Source of the DNA: a virus
IMG/VR virus record: IMGVR_UViG_3300021425_002125
Span: 1 to 23,182 of that record
Length of the DNA: 23,182 bases
Direction: 5' to 3' (one strand)
Part shown: piece after piece, positions 2,542-20,211 of the stretch
Layout of the letters: every line of letters begins with the position of its first letter
Position numbering within the stretch: the first letter of the stretch is position 1
Position numbers and translations under genes: made by a program
The notes under the pieces: model-generated
The model's database searches: none
Told to the model about the DNA's origin: nothing
The model's input: the letters and a program-made list of their open reading frames with translations, nothing else

Positions 2542-3571
2542 TGTTGGAAATATATCTGAGTTAAACGGATCTGCACAAGTAGTAAGAGGTCAGCCATACA
2601 GTGCTGAACTAAAGTTTAATATCCAACAAAACGATGAAGCTATAACTACCAATGGTCGTATGGCTATTACATTCCTAGATGATTCTAAAGTTAAGCTAAC
2701 TGAACACTCACAACTAACTATAGACGAATACGTCTTTGATCCTAACCCTAGCAAATCTAAAATGGCTATCACCTTTGGTCTTGGCACAGCCAGGTTTATC
2801 ACAGGCAGTCTTAATAAAATAGATAAAAATAATATAGACTTAAAAACACCTACAGCAAACATAGCTATACGTGGTACTGACTTTACAGTAACTGTAGATG
2901 AAACTGGACGTAGTTTATTAATACTATTACCTGATATTAATGGTTTGTCTAGCGGTGAAATATTGGTAACTACAGCCATGGGTACAGTTACACTTAATAA
3001 ACCATACCAAGCTACAACCGTAGATGTATTTGAAAAAACCCCAACCAAACCAGTTATTTTAGACTTAACTTTGGATATTATAGATAACATGCTTATTGTT
3101 AACCCACCAAAACAAAATACACAGTTAACAGAAGAAACAACAGCAAACACATCAAGCAATATACTGGATGTGGATTATCTAGAGTTTGAAGATTTAGACA
3201 AAGATTATCTAGAGGATGATAGTCTTGAGTTTACGGAGCTTGACTACAATTGGTTAGATGTAAATTTTCTTGAAGACCTTTTAGACATATTAGATGAGCT
3301 TGAGGTAATACAAGAAGAAGATCAGTTGGCACAAGATGCAACCACATTAAATATAGTTGGAACTAGACTTGGTCAAGATCTAGAAACTCAAATCACAACT
3401 TACATGACAGGAGAAAAGCTAACTATAATAAGAAGCGTAAACAATACTGCAAGAGTAGATATTGATTCTGATACGGGTTATACAGTTATTTTTATTCAAG
3501 ATGGAGTATCTAGAGTGGTATCAATAAACGGAGGGGAGGGTAGCACCATAAAGGTTACCCAAAGCAACTGA
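2408..3571 (+). CDS. Secreted FecR-domain protein with acidic repeat region
   Basis: The product has 387 residues. The ATG at 2408 is the only start that includes the hydrophobic signal segment (about residues 19-38, ending Ala-Thr-Ala), although it lies inside the curlin-like gene. Residues 48-170 form a FecR domain: Gly-Ser-Ala-Gln-Val-Val-Arg-Gly, Asp-Asp-Ser, the Gly-Leu-Gly-Thr-Ala-Arg-Phe turn and the hallmark Ile-Arg-Gly-Thr (154-157). A very acidic region follows (about 250-310), with the 12-base sequence GATTATCTAGAG repeated 30 bases apart at 3173 and 3203. The C-terminal 70 residues look beta-rich. FecR domains work in the periplasm as signalling or structural modules, and in many bacteria they neighbour CHASE2-cyclase genes, as here. 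No sigma factor is present. The stop overlaps the next start by one base (TGATG). Confidence 0.85.
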   Translation: MAVQIHSILNNSQHWLETGYQLLALLLILISVSFKATAEQQPAVDVGNISELNGSAQVVRGQPYSAELKFNIQQNDEAITTNGRMAITFLDDSKVKLTEHSQLTIDEYVFDPNPSKSKMAITFGLGTARFITGSLNKIDKNNIDLKTPTANIAIRGTDFTVTVDETGRSLLILLPDINGLSSGEILVTTAMGTVTLNKPYQATTVDVFEKTPTKPVILDLTLDIIDNMLIVNPPKQNTQLTEETTANTSSNILDVDYLEFEDLDKDYLEDDSLEFTELDYNWLDVNFLEDLLDILDELEVIQEEDQLAQDATTLNIVGTRLGQDLETQITTYMTGEKLTIIRSVNNTARVDIDSDTGYTVIFIQDGVSRVVSINGGEGSTIKVTQSN

Positions 3572-16200: not shown

Positions 16201-18270
16201 CCTGATAGGGACGGAACTAGTTGGTCTTTTGATACAAACCCAAGACAGCCTGGTACTTCTCAAATCTTATTTAAGTCAAACGGGAAATCATACGCACTAA
16301 CATTAAAAAAACAAAAGATAGCTGTGGCTTTTGAAAATTTAGATAACTCTGTATCCGAAGGAATTTTAAAATTTGGAAGACCTTTGGTTTCATACCTTTC
16401 ATATATTAATACATCTATAGATCCAGAATTTATAATGAATAACTTTTTAAGAGATGTTCAAACTGGTTATTACAATCTATTGACAGAAAGAGATATGGAG
16501 GGAGGAAGACTAGAGGGACTTGAAGAGTTCGCCAGAAAAGATGTTGCAAAACATTACAACGCGAAAAACCTTTTTAAAAACATGAAGTCATATTATAAAT
16601 ATGAGCGTTCAAGAAATTCTGAAAACCCAATGGACAGACAATCATCAGAATACAAGCTGATTGAAGCATTTAAAAAAGCAGGAGGTCAAACAGGATTTTT
16701 AGATCAAAAGACTCTTGAGGAAAGAGAAAAACACATGAAAGACCTTATGGATATCTATCAAGGAGATCTTAAGGCAAATGCTAAAAAAACTTTAGGTGCA
16801 ACTTTAAACTATATTGAGGATGTAAACTTTTCTGTAGAAAACGCAGCAAGAATCACAGCATTTGAAGCTTTTGTAAATGGAAAAGGGGGGCTAGAAAAAG
16901 TTACTCCAGCAGATTTAGATAGAGCTGCAGCTCTTGCTAAAAACTTAACAGTAAACTTTAATAGAGGTGGAACAAGTACAGGAGCAATAGGATCTATGTA
17001 TTTGTTTTTCAATGCGAGTATACAGGGAACAGTTAATGTATTTAGAGGGGCTTCAACTAAACAAAAACAAAAAATATTTGCATCTTTAGCAAGCATTGGT
17101 TCTGCATCAGCAATGTATAACATTCTCTCAAGCGGAGAAGATGATGACGGTAACCTTTATTATGAAAAAATATCAGACTTTGACAAGATGACTGGATTAA
17201 TAATGATGTTCCCAAATGTAGGAAAGATTGATGGAAAATTTACTATAGAAAAATATGGGATATCAGGACAAGGCAAAAAGTATTTTATGATAGATAACAA
17301 GGGCAAGAAAAGACCAGTAGGAGTTAAAATCCCACTTCCTTATGGATATGCGTTTTTTCACAATGTTGGAAGAATTTCTACAGAGGTTGCTCTTTCCAAG
17401 GGAATGGAAAATTATGACAGAGATGTGGGTGAAGCGGGTCTTGAGCTTGCACAGTCTTTGGTTTCTAATTACAGTCCAATAGGTTTTGATAATAGTGACA
17501 ACACATTTAAAAACATAACAAAAACCATTACTCCTGATTCTTTAGCCATGATCCCGGCAAAACAAGTGGTAGAACTTTTGGTTAACGAAGATTTTTTTGG
17601 GTCGCCAATTTATTATCAAAACTTTCCAGGGCAAAACAAACCAAGCTCATGGCATGAAAATAATAAAACAGGTGACTGGATTGAAAAAACTACAAGAGCT
17701 ATAAATGAAGCAACAGGTGGGACAGATTTTGCCCCAGGAAATATAGATATAGACCCATCAGTAATTCAATATTTTATTGACTACGCAACTGGTGGTTTAG
17801 GTAGAAACCTAGGAAGGGTTGCTAGGCAGTTTTCTCCAGACGATGCTGGTTTAGAACAAACACCATTTTTAAGAAGAATATTTGTAACAACAAGAGATGT
17901 TCAAGATAGTTCAAAGTTTTATGATAATTATATTGATCTATCAGACATACAAAAAATGTACACAGACGGAAGAGACTCAGAAATAGATAATGATGTATGG
18001 TTAGATAAAAATCATCCCTGGGCTAGAGAGCTTATAAATACGCAATCGGAAAGAAGAACAAGAAAGCTTGGCAATAGATCTTTTCTTAAAGAGGTTGATA
18101 AAAAACTAAAGGGGTTTAGGGAAAAAGAAGATAAAATAAGATCGAAGTATTACGAAGCTGACAAAGAAAAATACTATCAAGAACTGGAAATGTTAAATCT
18201 AGAAAGAAATTTATATTACAGAACTTTTAATGAGTCTATTGAAAAGGTTAAGAAATCGCAGAGCCGATAA
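13216..18270 (+). CDS. Giant internal virion/ejection protein (gp16-like, LPD38-type region)
   Basis: The product has 1684 residues from a GTG start with AAAGGA upstream; a nearer ATG at 13211 is out of frame. The N-terminus has Lys/Gln-rich repeats (Tyr-Lys-Gln-Lys-Gln-Gln, residues 10-36). Hydrophobic stretches lie at about 181-203, 336-356 and 1290-1308. The segment at about 1058-1090 (Ser-Tyr-Leu-Ser-Tyr-Ile-Asn-Thr, Asn-Asn-Phe-Leu-Arg-Asp) and that at about 1249-1281 (Phe-Asn-Arg-Gly-Gly, Phe-Phe-Asn-Ala-Ser) resemble the LPD38 region of large polyvalent phage proteins. A charged coiled coil closes the protein (about 1605-1680). I see no lytic transglycosylase motif, unlike T7 gp16. The likely role is ejection into the host with the DNA. 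Confidence 0.75.
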   Translation: MADQKLIERYKQKQQELNEQSPENPLIEAYKQKQQQTPSRSLWGYTKAYLDAGASTAWTNASTALSTNLLEGEFAKIDVAKGKYGFGDMVYDMTKSVLSKGVRGIFDPADIVTGKSPYSKYYKSNKVRHAESYAKDEQYRQQVNEMEKRVLDVFDKRVLAKQRRLQKKFEEKGYNDLSEGAISGISSTMQFIPAAIATFATRSPKVLEGYIGLMSLQSKGTSFADSISNGADYSQAMSNSNMNGLIEGALGRVGFGPNSKFMKEFVSKNDGAFKRMGKQAFPSLALELGAENATTILQETSTVMHDIQSELKIALDNQDNPQYKGPSVGELLTDYIATTSLATVVGVGGTIGVTGSIKYTGDTLGKLAEAGIKKGDEYIKAHQKVVSNVTKSNAVLDKFTLDTADQENFNEFANNEDLAEHIAREIVVLDLDNYKPTKRKVKFPRMDRPVKARSVLNRAISKDFYKLAELKYAIGGQIPKNYYSKTGAKDFDELQVLFEEEGFLNPDRIMQMNSNKPDVNKEQEIMDLISKNPENIASIENRGGFENQYDLAMIDFLRQQEAPVQEKKIQSQNRLKKDDVAESLDRLIERGEVVEDANGFRLSDSRDADFVPLDQPTEPVTLEDLQEVTPDFTQEEQAQTEEDIRSGKLQKILLAKKRPKKKNNVIDDPDPMNSFDYNDLGSFLNIAERISIKYADTFSHLRKIEGGLLEAHGFEGVEDQFKKAGIDPNKKDWRPSLQADIFQGPVVEVQKKIESDIVPKMAKHIEKSKLDLETFSHFLLNLHATERNSYIKTTNQEELAKLNASKDQTAKDIKRISKLKEKIEKESGSGITNEDAKDKLKEYGIELMQDGKAIAFNEQGKNLLFGYESFIRPMLDIKRNAYKEAGLVKEDLVDDWNDRYKYYVPLKGIAEDTLNLNGVSRERKISTSGMINKQLGVPRNIEKAAKGRSSVAADPIAQTISDALSATIYQQKNNVYKAGGELALAYPQSELWDVKPDRDGTSWSFDTNPRQPGTSQILFKSNGKSYALTLKKQKIAVAFENLDNSVSEGILKFGRPLVSYLSYINTSIDPEFIMNNFLRDVQTGYYNLLTERDMEGGRLEGLEEFARKDVAKHYNAKNLFKNMKSYYKYERSRNSENPMDRQSSEYKLIEAFKKAGGQTGFLDQKTLEEREKHMKDLMDIYQGDLKANAKKTLGATLNYIEDVNFSVENAARITAFEAFVNGKGGLEKVTPADLDRAAALAKNLTVNFNRGGTSTGAIGSMYLFFNASIQGTVNVFRGASTKQKQKIFASLASIGSASAMYNILSSGEDDDGNLYYEKISDFDKMTGLIMMFPNVGKIDGKFTIEKYGISGQGKKYFMIDNKGKKRPVGVKIPLPYGYAFFHNVGRISTEVALSKGMENYDRDVGEAGLELAQSLVSNYSPIGFDNSDNTFKNITKTITPDSLAMIPAKQVVELLVNEDFFGSPIYYQNFPGQNKPSSWHENNKTGDWIEKTTRAINEATGGTDFAPGNIDIDPSVIQYFIDYATGGLGRNLGRVARQFSPDDAGLEQTPFLRRIFVTTRDVQDSSKFYDNYIDLSDIQKMYTDGRDSEIDNDVWLDKNHPWARELINTQSERRTRKLGNRSFLKEVDKKLKGFREKEDKIRSKYYEADKEKYYQELEMLNLERNLYYRTFNESIEKVKKSQSR

Positions 18271-18289
18271 ACATATAATGCGAGGGAAT

Positions 18290-18349
18290 ATGAATATAGA
18301 AATACCAGCTCTGCTGAAGGTTTCTATAGTTAAGATATCAGAGTATTAG
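18290..18349 (+). CDS. Possible 19-residue micro-ORF or gene remnant
   Basis: An ATG preceded by GAGGGA opens a 19-codon frame ending TAG at 18347-18349, with an in-frame ATG at 18278 as alternative start. The peptide alternates acidic, Pro, Leu and Lys residues and looks like the start of a beta-rich small protein. It overlaps the convergent integrase end by 20 bases. It is the last possible gene of the late block and may be a truncated gene or chance. Confidence 0.25.
   Translation: MNIEIPALLKVSIVKISEY
18295..18328. terminator. Hairpin between convergent late genes and integrase
   Basis: An 8-base inverted repeat, TATAGAAA (18295-18302) and TTTCTATA (18321-18328), encloses a second one, CAGC (18306-18309) and GCTG (18313-18316). 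It lies where the rightward late transcript and the leftward integrase transcript meet, the expected place for a bidirectional terminator. No T-tract follows on either strand, so a terminator is not certain; it could instead be a recombination-related site. Confidence 0.4.
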
Positions 18350-19130
18350 TTGTCTCACAAGCATCATTCAAATAATCTTTTGATAAGTGTGCATACCTAT
18401 TTACTATATTAAAGTCAGACCACCCACCAAGATGCTGTAATGTATGTAAAGGAGTGCCATTTTGCACATGGTGAGTAGCCCAAGTATGCCTAATATCATG
18501 CCATCTAAAACCCTGGAGATTTGTTTTTTGTAAGGCGTTATACCAACCAGTATTAGAAGCTCTTGACATTTTCTTACCCGCATATGTAAAAACATATTTA
18601 TGATTTTTTTCTATAGAGTCTAATAGCTCTTTACATCTTCCATTCAAAGGCACGCATAAGCTCCTGCCATTTTTAGTTTCAGTGCCGTCAATTGCTATCT
18701 GATCTTCCTTGATATCACTCCATTTAAGATTAAAGCAGTTGGACATTCTAACCCCGGTGAGGAGTGAGAAGACAAAAGGCTTTTTTAGATGCAGGGGGAG
18801 AGCATCATGCAGCTTCTTTATGTCTTCCAAAGTAAAGTATTTAAGTCTTTTAGGGGAATCCTTTACCTTTTTAATAATGGGCTTAGTGTCCAACCACCCT
18901 AACTCTTCATATGCATACATAAGTATTGCACGGAAGTAGCTTAAATATCTGTTAACAGTTCCAGGCGACCCCTTTATGCCTGATCTAGCAACAGCTATTT
19001 GTTCTTTTGTAATAGTTTTAATATCTTGATTTGCAAACAAAGGCTCAAAATACTTTCTATAGGTAAAATCATTCTTACCCATTTTATTAAACCTATAATA
19101 TTCTTTTATTGCGTCAGTTAATGTTTTCAT
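18330..19130 (-). CDS. int: Tyrosine integrase
   Basis: The 266-residue site-specific recombinase joins phage and host attachment sites. The N-terminal SAM-like core-binding domain spans about 1-85, the catalytic domain about 95-260. All active-site residues can be seen: Arg128 (Thr-Gly-Val-Arg), Lys153 (Thr-Lys-Asn-Gly-Arg), His211 and Arg214 (His-Asp-Ile-Arg-His), Trp237 in the second His position (Gly-Gly-Trp-Ser), and nucleophile Tyr246 (Asn-Arg-Tyr-Ala-His-Leu). It is short for a phage integrase because the arm-binding domain seen in lambda Int is missing. The start overlaps the stop of a frameshifted small ORF upstream (ATGA). It is the last gene of the leftward block, convergent with the late genes. 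Confidence 0.95.
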   Translation of the reverse strand: MKTLTDAIKEYYRFNKMGKNDFTYRKYFEPLFANQDIKTITKEQIAVARSGIKGSPGTVNRYLSYFRAILMYAYEELGWLDTKPIIKKVKDSPKRLKYFTLEDIKKLHDALPLHLKKPFVFSLLTGVRMSNCFNLKWSDIKEDQIAIDGTETKNGRSLCVPLNGRCKELLDSIEKNHKYVFTYAGKKMSRASNTGWYNALQKTNLQGFRWHDIRHTWATHHVQNGTPLHTLQHLGGWSDFNIVNRYAHLSKDYLNDACETTNTLIS

Positions 19131-19263
19131 TTTTTATTTTTTGCAATTAATATTTTCTCATGCTGAGTCCATATTCTTTTAAACTCAGAATCTTTTGATT
19201 TTTTTTTAGCTTTTTTTATTGCGTTAATTTTTTTTTGTTAAACCGTTCATTATTTGCCCCCAT
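19127..19263 (-). pseudogene. Small Lys-rich ORF upstream of int, broken at an A9 run
   Basis: Reading leftward, an ATG at 19263 (or 19250) opens a frame that meets nine A residues (minus strand; plus 19228-19236) and then stops. If one base is gained on the first frame, or one lost on the second, the frame continues to a TGA at 19127-19129 that overlaps the integrase ATG. The joined product would have about 45 residues, very basic (Lys/Asn-rich start, Lys-Lys-Ala-Lys-Lys-Lys, then Phe-Lys-Arg-Ile-Trp-Thr-Gln-His-Glu). It could be an excisionase-like or regulatory protein. The break may be a real mutation, a programmed or slippage frameshift, or an assembly error. Confidence 0.5.
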
Positions 19264-19273
19264 TAAATATTCT

Positions 19274-19303
19274 ATGTATACATTATAAACATGTATTACG
19301 CAT
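19274..19303. promoter_or_regulatory. Operator-like palindrome and ATGTAT repeats over the int promoter
   Basis: The palindrome ATGTATACAT (19274-19283) touches the -10 box, and ATGTAT recurs at 19291 in the spacer, with ACATGT at 19289-19294. Such clustered half-sites across -10 and start are typical of a repressor site. The binding protein is unknown; the RHH protein of this window is one candidate. Confidence 0.35.
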
Positions 19304-19312
19304 TATTGTCAA
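19282..19312 (-). promoter_or_regulatory. Sigma-70-like promoter for the integrase unit
   Basis: On the minus strand a perfect TTGACA (plus 19307-19312) and a perfect TATAAT (plus 19282-19287) are separated by 19 bases, slightly long. The -35 box lies in the last codons of the nuclease gene. The start point falls about 20 bases before the first ATG of the small ORF. Confidence 0.6.
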
Positions 19313-19757
19313 TAACATATTTTTTAAATAGGCTTATAGGAATTAAGCAGGCTTTTTTAGTTTGACTATCTCCTTCACCCAATAGATCTTGAACCCTTAT
19401 GTTATTTAGTAAAATGCACTCTAATATTTTTTTTGGTTTTATCCACAGGTTTTCTACACCAGTGTGTATTATCCAGTAGTCAGCCTCAGTGGAGAGCAAA
19501 GCAGACGGCTTACCAAACATATATAGTTCAATAATAATGTTGTCAGTCTCTTGGCTTTTATAGTCTACCTTTACTTCTATTTTTAAATCTTTTTCAGGAA
19601 CAAAAATGTCATACGGTTTAAATTTGCCTGGAATTAATACAGCAGTATGATACTTTTTTTGTATAGACTTTAAGATCTTTTGTTCTAGTTCTTGCCCAAC
19701 CAGTAGATCTTTTTTAAAAGCCTTACTCGAACTTGTCTTTGACTTCTGAATAGTCAT
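19296..19757 (-). CDS. PD-(D/E)XK nuclease-like protein
   Basis: The product has 153 residues. An N-terminal helix with Gly-Gln-Glu-Leu-Glu (21-25) is followed by Pro-Tyr-Asp-Ile (Asp50), then Ile-Glu-Val-Lys-Val-Asp (Glu61, Lys63), giving the Asp...Glu-x-Lys metal-binding core, and a later Glu-Ala-Asp-Tyr-Trp-Ile-Ile-His strand. This layout is that of phage endonucleases related to Holliday-junction resolvases. It lies at the end of the recombination operon, which fits branch resolution or DNA processing. Its start overlaps the preceding gene by 35 bases and lacks a clear ribosome-binding site, so it is probably translated by coupling. Confidence 0.75.
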   Translation of the reverse strand: MTIQKSKTSSSKAFKKDLLVGQELEQKILKSIQKKYHTAVLIPGKFKPYDIFVPEKDLKIEVKVDYKSQETDNIIIELYMFGKPSALLSTEADYWIIHTGVENLWIKPKKILECILLNNIRVQDLLGEGDSQTKKACLIPISLFKKYVIDNNA

Positions 19758-20211
19758 TTTGAGACATTATTGATTTTATAGATATGTCATTAAACTTATG
19801 ACCAGATGTTATTATCTTGTTTAATAAGTTTATGCACTTATGATCTTGTGGATACATTTCTGACTGGCATGTAGCAACATGAATAACTCTTTTTATTGCA
19901 TCGCCAACTGTTAGATTGTCTATATTTTTCAATTTTTGTAACTCCCTCCATCTATCTTCTTGTGAAGACACTTGCCTTATCTTGAAACCTTCTGCGGCAT
20001 TTTTAATATTTATTATTTTTCTTTTTAACTCTGGTAATTCATTCCATTCTCTTATTTCATCCTCATGTCTACCACAAGTCTTACACCGAATATCTCCTAT
20101 TGTTGTAGAGCAAACCCTGCCATTACAGGGTGAACCTGAGAGGGAAGACTCCCCTAGTACAGATGAGAGCCTCTCAGAACCTGAGAGACTCTTTTCTAGT
20201 TTTGCATTCAT
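19723..20211 (-). CDS. DUF1289-type Cys-rich protein with C-terminal extension
   Basis: The product has 162 residues. Residues about 27-62 carry Cys29, Cys34, Cys43 and Cys46 (CX4CX8CX2C) followed by Glu-Ile-Arg-Glu-Trp-Asn, the signature of DUF1289, small bacterial proteins predicted to bind Fe-S or zinc. DUF1289 proteins are usually little longer than this domain; here a 100-residue helical extension follows, with two more Cys (about 114 and 126). The N-terminal 27 residues repeat Ser-Leu-Ser-Gly-Ser twice, from a DNA repeat. The start overlaps the upstream gene by four bases (ATGA). Function is unknown; a role beside recombination genes is inferred. Confidence 0.7.
   Translation of the reverse strand: MNAKLEKSLSGSERLSSVLGESSLSGSPCNGRVCSTTIGDIRCKTCGRHEDEIREWNELPELKRKIINIKNAAEGFKIRQVSSQEDRWRELQKLKNIDNLTVGDAIKRVIHVATCQSEMYPQDHKCINLLNKIITSGHKFNDISIKSIMSQNDYSEVKDKFE
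20167..20191. repeat. 25-base near-palindrome in the 5' end of the DUF1289-like gene
   Basis: GAG, one base, CTCTCAG, AAC, CTGAGAG, one base, CTC forms two arms of eleven bases that pair except at one position, around a three-base loop. In the leftward mRNA this hairpin lies 20-44 bases inside the coding region. The sequence GAACCTGAGAG occurs at 20177 and again at 20132, 45 bases away and in frame. Confidence 0.6.

Follow-up and report, generated by a model that had tools for sequence, protein, structure and literature searches.

A conserved small basic gene overlapping a phage integrase, interrupted at a run of nine A residues in one virus record

The window considered here, that is the whole stretch of DNA analysed, comprises the 23,182 bases of one virus record, which is assigned to a phage because it contains a match to an internal virion protein (phrog_511) together with genes for an Erf-like annealing protein and a RecE-like exonuclease. 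On its minus strand, the gene of a tyrosine integrase is directly preceded by a small gene for a basic protein, whose reading frame is broken at a run of A residues. The features of this locus are the following:

19282 to 19312, minus strand: TTGACA, 19 nt, TATAAT, promoter-like (by eye)
19257 to 19261, minus strand: GGGGG, putative ribosome-binding site for the small gene (read from the sequence)
19127 to 19250, minus strand: small basic gene, out of frame here, 40 aa in close relatives (frame analysis and homologues)
19224 to 19250, minus strand: ATG frame as it stands, MNGLTKKN and then TAA (frame analysis)
19228 to 19236, minus strand: A9 run (T9 on the plus strand), 8 A in the related loci L006, L009, L010 and L077 (frame analysis and close copies)
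19199 to 19207, minus strand: second A9 run, in frame (AAA AAA AAA), of equal length in L006, L009, L010 and L077
18330 to 19130, minus strand: tyrosine integrase, 266 aa, its start overlapping the stop of the small gene as ATGA (PF00589, E 3.7e-25; phrog_1, E 1.4e-53)

No match to the DNA of 18200-20000 was found among annotated phages, an Rfam search and a tRNA search were likewise without result, and a search of genome contigs with the integrase retrieved distant integrases only (22-40% identity).

As it stands, the ATG at 19250 opens a frame of 8 aa, whose TAA (19226-19224) lies directly after the A9 run. The second frame, INAIKKAKKKSKDSEFKRIWTQHEKILIAKNKK, comprises 33 aa and terminates at the TGA of 19129-19127, which overlaps the integrase ATG at 19130-19128. 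Frame analysis and homologues thus confirm the claim of an earlier note that the A run divides one coherent basic product, and its claim that the stop of the small gene overlaps the integrase start holds as well. Reinitiation of translation within the second frame was rejected, since no ATG, GTG or TTG codon precedes its stop, and a chance open frame was rejected because the second frame is matched by 30 homologues among 79 relatives of the integrase.

When run lengths from 5 to 13 were tried by script, the final TGA was reached at 5, 8 and 11 only, and runs of 9 or 10 A both led to an early stop. The joined product has 40 aa with 8 A and 41 aa with 11 A rather than the roughly 45 residues estimated before, and the window copy has a surplus A instead of lacking one. 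A run of 10 A, previously taken for the intact gene, yields MNGLTKKKLTQ and then a stop, the intact length being 8 A. Similarly, the -1 ribosomal shift that had been invoked to join the frames is a dead end, reading LTQ and then a stop; joining requires a +1 (or -2) move of the ribosome, or a message that has lost one (or gained two) A. The A9 run is not unusual in itself, since two A/T runs of at least 9 are present in the window and, under a first-order Markov model of its sequence, 2.31 are expected on average. Eight A/T runs of at least 8 were listed; the seven others lie in open frames, which argues against a general homopolymer problem in the record.

A search of viral contigs with the window's integrase gave 79 loci (L002-L080). 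An intact homologue of the small gene stands directly before the integrase in 30 of them (27 with ATG starts only, 30 once GTG starts and a looser motif were admitted), and in all 30 it overlaps or abuts the integrase start. The earlier proviso that no homologous product might exist anywhere does not apply, homologues being plentiful. In the four closest copies, L006, L009, L010 and L077, the gene encodes MNGLTKKINAIKKAKKKS[KQ]D[SP]EFKKIWTQHEKIL[IV]AKNKK with 8 A each; the protein is identical in the last three, so that the four copies amount to about two lineages. A flank scan permitting any 5-14 bases between the flanks, which may leave out records near-identical to the window, recovered the same four contigs with 8 bases each. 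The comparison of homologues with 8, 9 or 10 A that the earlier note had proposed hence returned 8 A in the four close copies, all intact, and its equation of 10 A with an intact gene did not stand. More distant homologues examined have no long A run at the corresponding codons; in L092, which is among these, an A9 occurs later in the gene with the frame unbroken.

Substitutions in the small gene are mainly synonymous, as in L006/L009 (pN 0.024, pS 0.17), L029/L042 (pN 0.037, pS 0.84) and L021/L037 (pN 0.037, pS 0.60), a few close pairs with 1-4 changes being uninformative for pN/pS; this pattern points to purifying selection, and the gene, as judged from sequence comparison, is real and conserved. 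Residue 25 is K in 30 of 30 homologues and in 21 of 21 aligned sequences, and the window copy has R at this position (K25R).

An alignment-based search for the family gave 43 loci. A relative of the window's integrase is present in 27 of these, overlapping or abutting the small gene in 26, and in L101 a gap of 519 bases separates the two genes. The remaining 16 loci, including L117, which is cut at the contig end, have no detected relative of this integrase and may hold other integrase types. Members with the AKNPEFKKLW core and no detected integrase relative were seen in L095, L097-L100, L105, L111, L118, L120-L123 and L125-L127. For nine of the 16 the flanks were listed: gene orders differ, and in several the small ORF lies within packed operons.

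The proteins are basic, have 40-54 aa and share the core AKxxAKDPEFKKLWxxKLxxLL, with a computed pI of 9.9-11.1 in six members. Alignments A1 and A2 consist of 14 and 21 chosen distinct sequences rather than all rows, and over the 21 sequences eight columns are invariant, including E22, F23, K24, K25 and W27. Pfam, PHROGs and NCBIfam gave no convincing match (best PF25298, E 0.0032, below its curated cut-off), and no excisionase family in these collections matched at E up to 1. Structure prediction gives a hairpin of two helices (residues 3-17 and 21-39, mean pLDDT 88.4); one structure search returned 16 matches, all weaker than E 0.001, and another five, the best at E 0.34, a fold this simple rendering such searches uninformative. 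Among annotated phages, the 33-aa second frame had no match and two other family members had weak matches only (3 records at E 5; 1 record at E 0.3), and a literature search brought up no paper recognised as describing the small gene. As far as sequence comparison can tell, this is an unnamed family of small basic proteins. Its genes immediately precede the integrase in much of one integrase clade, and they also occur in loci with no detected integrase relative. The family is a more lasting result than the frameshift; the gene is easily missed in annotation because of its size and, in the window copy, its frameshift.

The integrase start in the window, as in L006 and L009, has no Shine-Dalgarno match of at least 4 bases; such matches occur at 20 of the 30 family loci and at 28 of the 49 other loci. 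The integrase of the window's lineage therefore probably depends on translational coupling, in which case a true frameshift should lower its level. The idea that the integrase overlap is special to the small gene was rejected: an ORF of at least 30 codons overlaps the integrase start in 69 of the 79 relatives, these ORFs belonging to 12 unrelated clusters, and other neighbouring genes of the record overlap too (e.g. at 3571, 5807, 8069, 9313, 10139, 11488 and 20208). The overlap may be ordinary dense packing. Across loci, the neighbour upstream of the integrase has been swapped while the overlap persists.

A mosaic junction was observed at 18330-19400, the integrase being 98% identical in aa to that of L002 and the upstream part resembling L006. 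In L002 a different small gene lies upstream of the integrase. The small gene and the first 60 bases of the integrase share 98-100% DNA identity with L006, and further into the integrase identity falls, to 75-82% in some parts and to 65-90% across much of the remaining gene. The candidate at 19282-19312, possibly promoter and operator of the pair of small gene and integrase, is not listed by a promoter scan, since its 19-nt spacing lies outside the 16-18 nt of that scan. By eye, an imperfect inverted repeat, ATACAT...ATGTAT, surrounds the second hexamer (TATAAT), and this stretch is well conserved with L006.

Very probably, the A9 run reflects an indel from 8 to 9 A in a single record, be it real or an artefact, and not a programmed feature. 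At somewhat short of an even chance, we infer that the ninth A is present in the phage DNA as a real frameshift allele of the window's lineage. It would have arisen by ordinary replication slippage, when a conserved small gene, cotranslated with the integrase in relatives, gained one A in an A8 run. Translation would then end at the eighth codon, some 90 bases short of the integrase start, and the small protein would be lost. Coupling would be lost as well, and integrase translation should fall, given a start that lies within the ATGA overlap and has no Shine-Dalgarno match of at least 4 bases; some leakage could come from a minor share of messages having 8 A. Support comes from the intact gene at the integrase in 30 of the 79 relatives and the 8 A of the four close copies. 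A real allele is somewhat favoured over a consensus error because K25R, in the same copy, alters a position that is K in all homologues compared, a hint that constraint has been relaxed. On the other hand, K to R is conservative and a single change, and with the gene intact in 30 of 30 relatives its loss is less likely than a consensus error at a homopolymer.

Such an error, introduced by sequencing, amplification or assembly into a phage that has 8 A and a plainly intact gene, is a serious contender, though it falls clearly below an even chance. The earlier note had kept it as an alternative, rightly so in view of the homopolymer position, where errors are frequent, and of the 8 A in four of four close copies. 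Moreover, the integrase of the related record L077 has an evident 22-nt duplication relative to L009 and L010, which probably reflects faulty assembly or a broken gene, and IMG/VR records hence do contain glitches. An error is made less probable by the open frames around all other A/T runs of at least 8, one of which is the A9 of the same gene, and by K25R.

Far less probable is phase variation, in which replication slippage within the population would change the run between 8 and 9 A and so toggle the small gene and the coupled integrase. The early position of a homopolymer in a gene overlapping the integrase would suit it, as would the overlapping or abutting position of 30 of 30 family members at the integrase; run length is constant, however, among the four contigs found with the flanking sequence, and a long A run is missing from this site in the more distant homologues. 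That the run acts as a contingency locus, its 8/9-A variation switching the small protein with the coupled integrase and thus biasing some virions against integration, is more doubtful still.

Least probable of all is programmed slippage of RNA polymerase or ribosome at the A9 to give a set amount of full product. Certain IS elements and the dnaX gene of T. thermophilus do use nine A in this way, but the hallmark of purposeful slippage is that homologues keep the length of the run (PMC1088944), and a conserved slippage site is absent here, the four close copies being in frame with 8 A and the distant homologues having no long run. A programmed -1 frameshift was rejected as well, since it enters LTQ and a stop instead of a conserved downstream frame. 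In addition, the one-base deletion required on poly(A) is inefficient: in a GFP test of poly(A) runs, E. coli RNA polymerase showed no detected deletion slippage and T7 RNA polymerase stayed below 20% (PMC6260861), figures that may not fit the polymerase transcribing this phage. If true, a control switch of this kind would give the phage a simple means of hedging lysogeny; the comparison with close and distant homologues speaks against it, and the slippage switch proposed earlier is unsupported.

Temperate phages such as lambda have overlapping xis-int gene pairs. The locus resembles these in that a small basic gene lies directly upstream of the integrase, its stop overlapping the integrase start. 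It differs from them in that the product, of 40-51 aa, is predicted as a plain two-helix hairpin and has no family match, an excisionase family included. Members of its family also occur in loci with no detected relative of this integrase, which may hold other integrase types.

With the programmed A9 slippage of IS elements and T. thermophilus dnaX (PMC1088944) the window shares nine A between two frames, whereas homologues do not keep its run as a slippage site and are plainly in frame. A closer likeness is found in the 'pseudo pseudogenes' of Baranov et al. 2005, in which a mutation lengthens 8 A to 9 (PMC1088944). Here, too, an in-frame run of 8 A has been lengthened to 9, breaking the frame, and intact homologues with 8 A exist elsewhere; in contrast to those cases, the ninth A comes from one record and may be an artefact, and messages with 8 A are hypothetical. 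If the ninth A is real, the window copy would belong to the class of pseudo pseudogenes.
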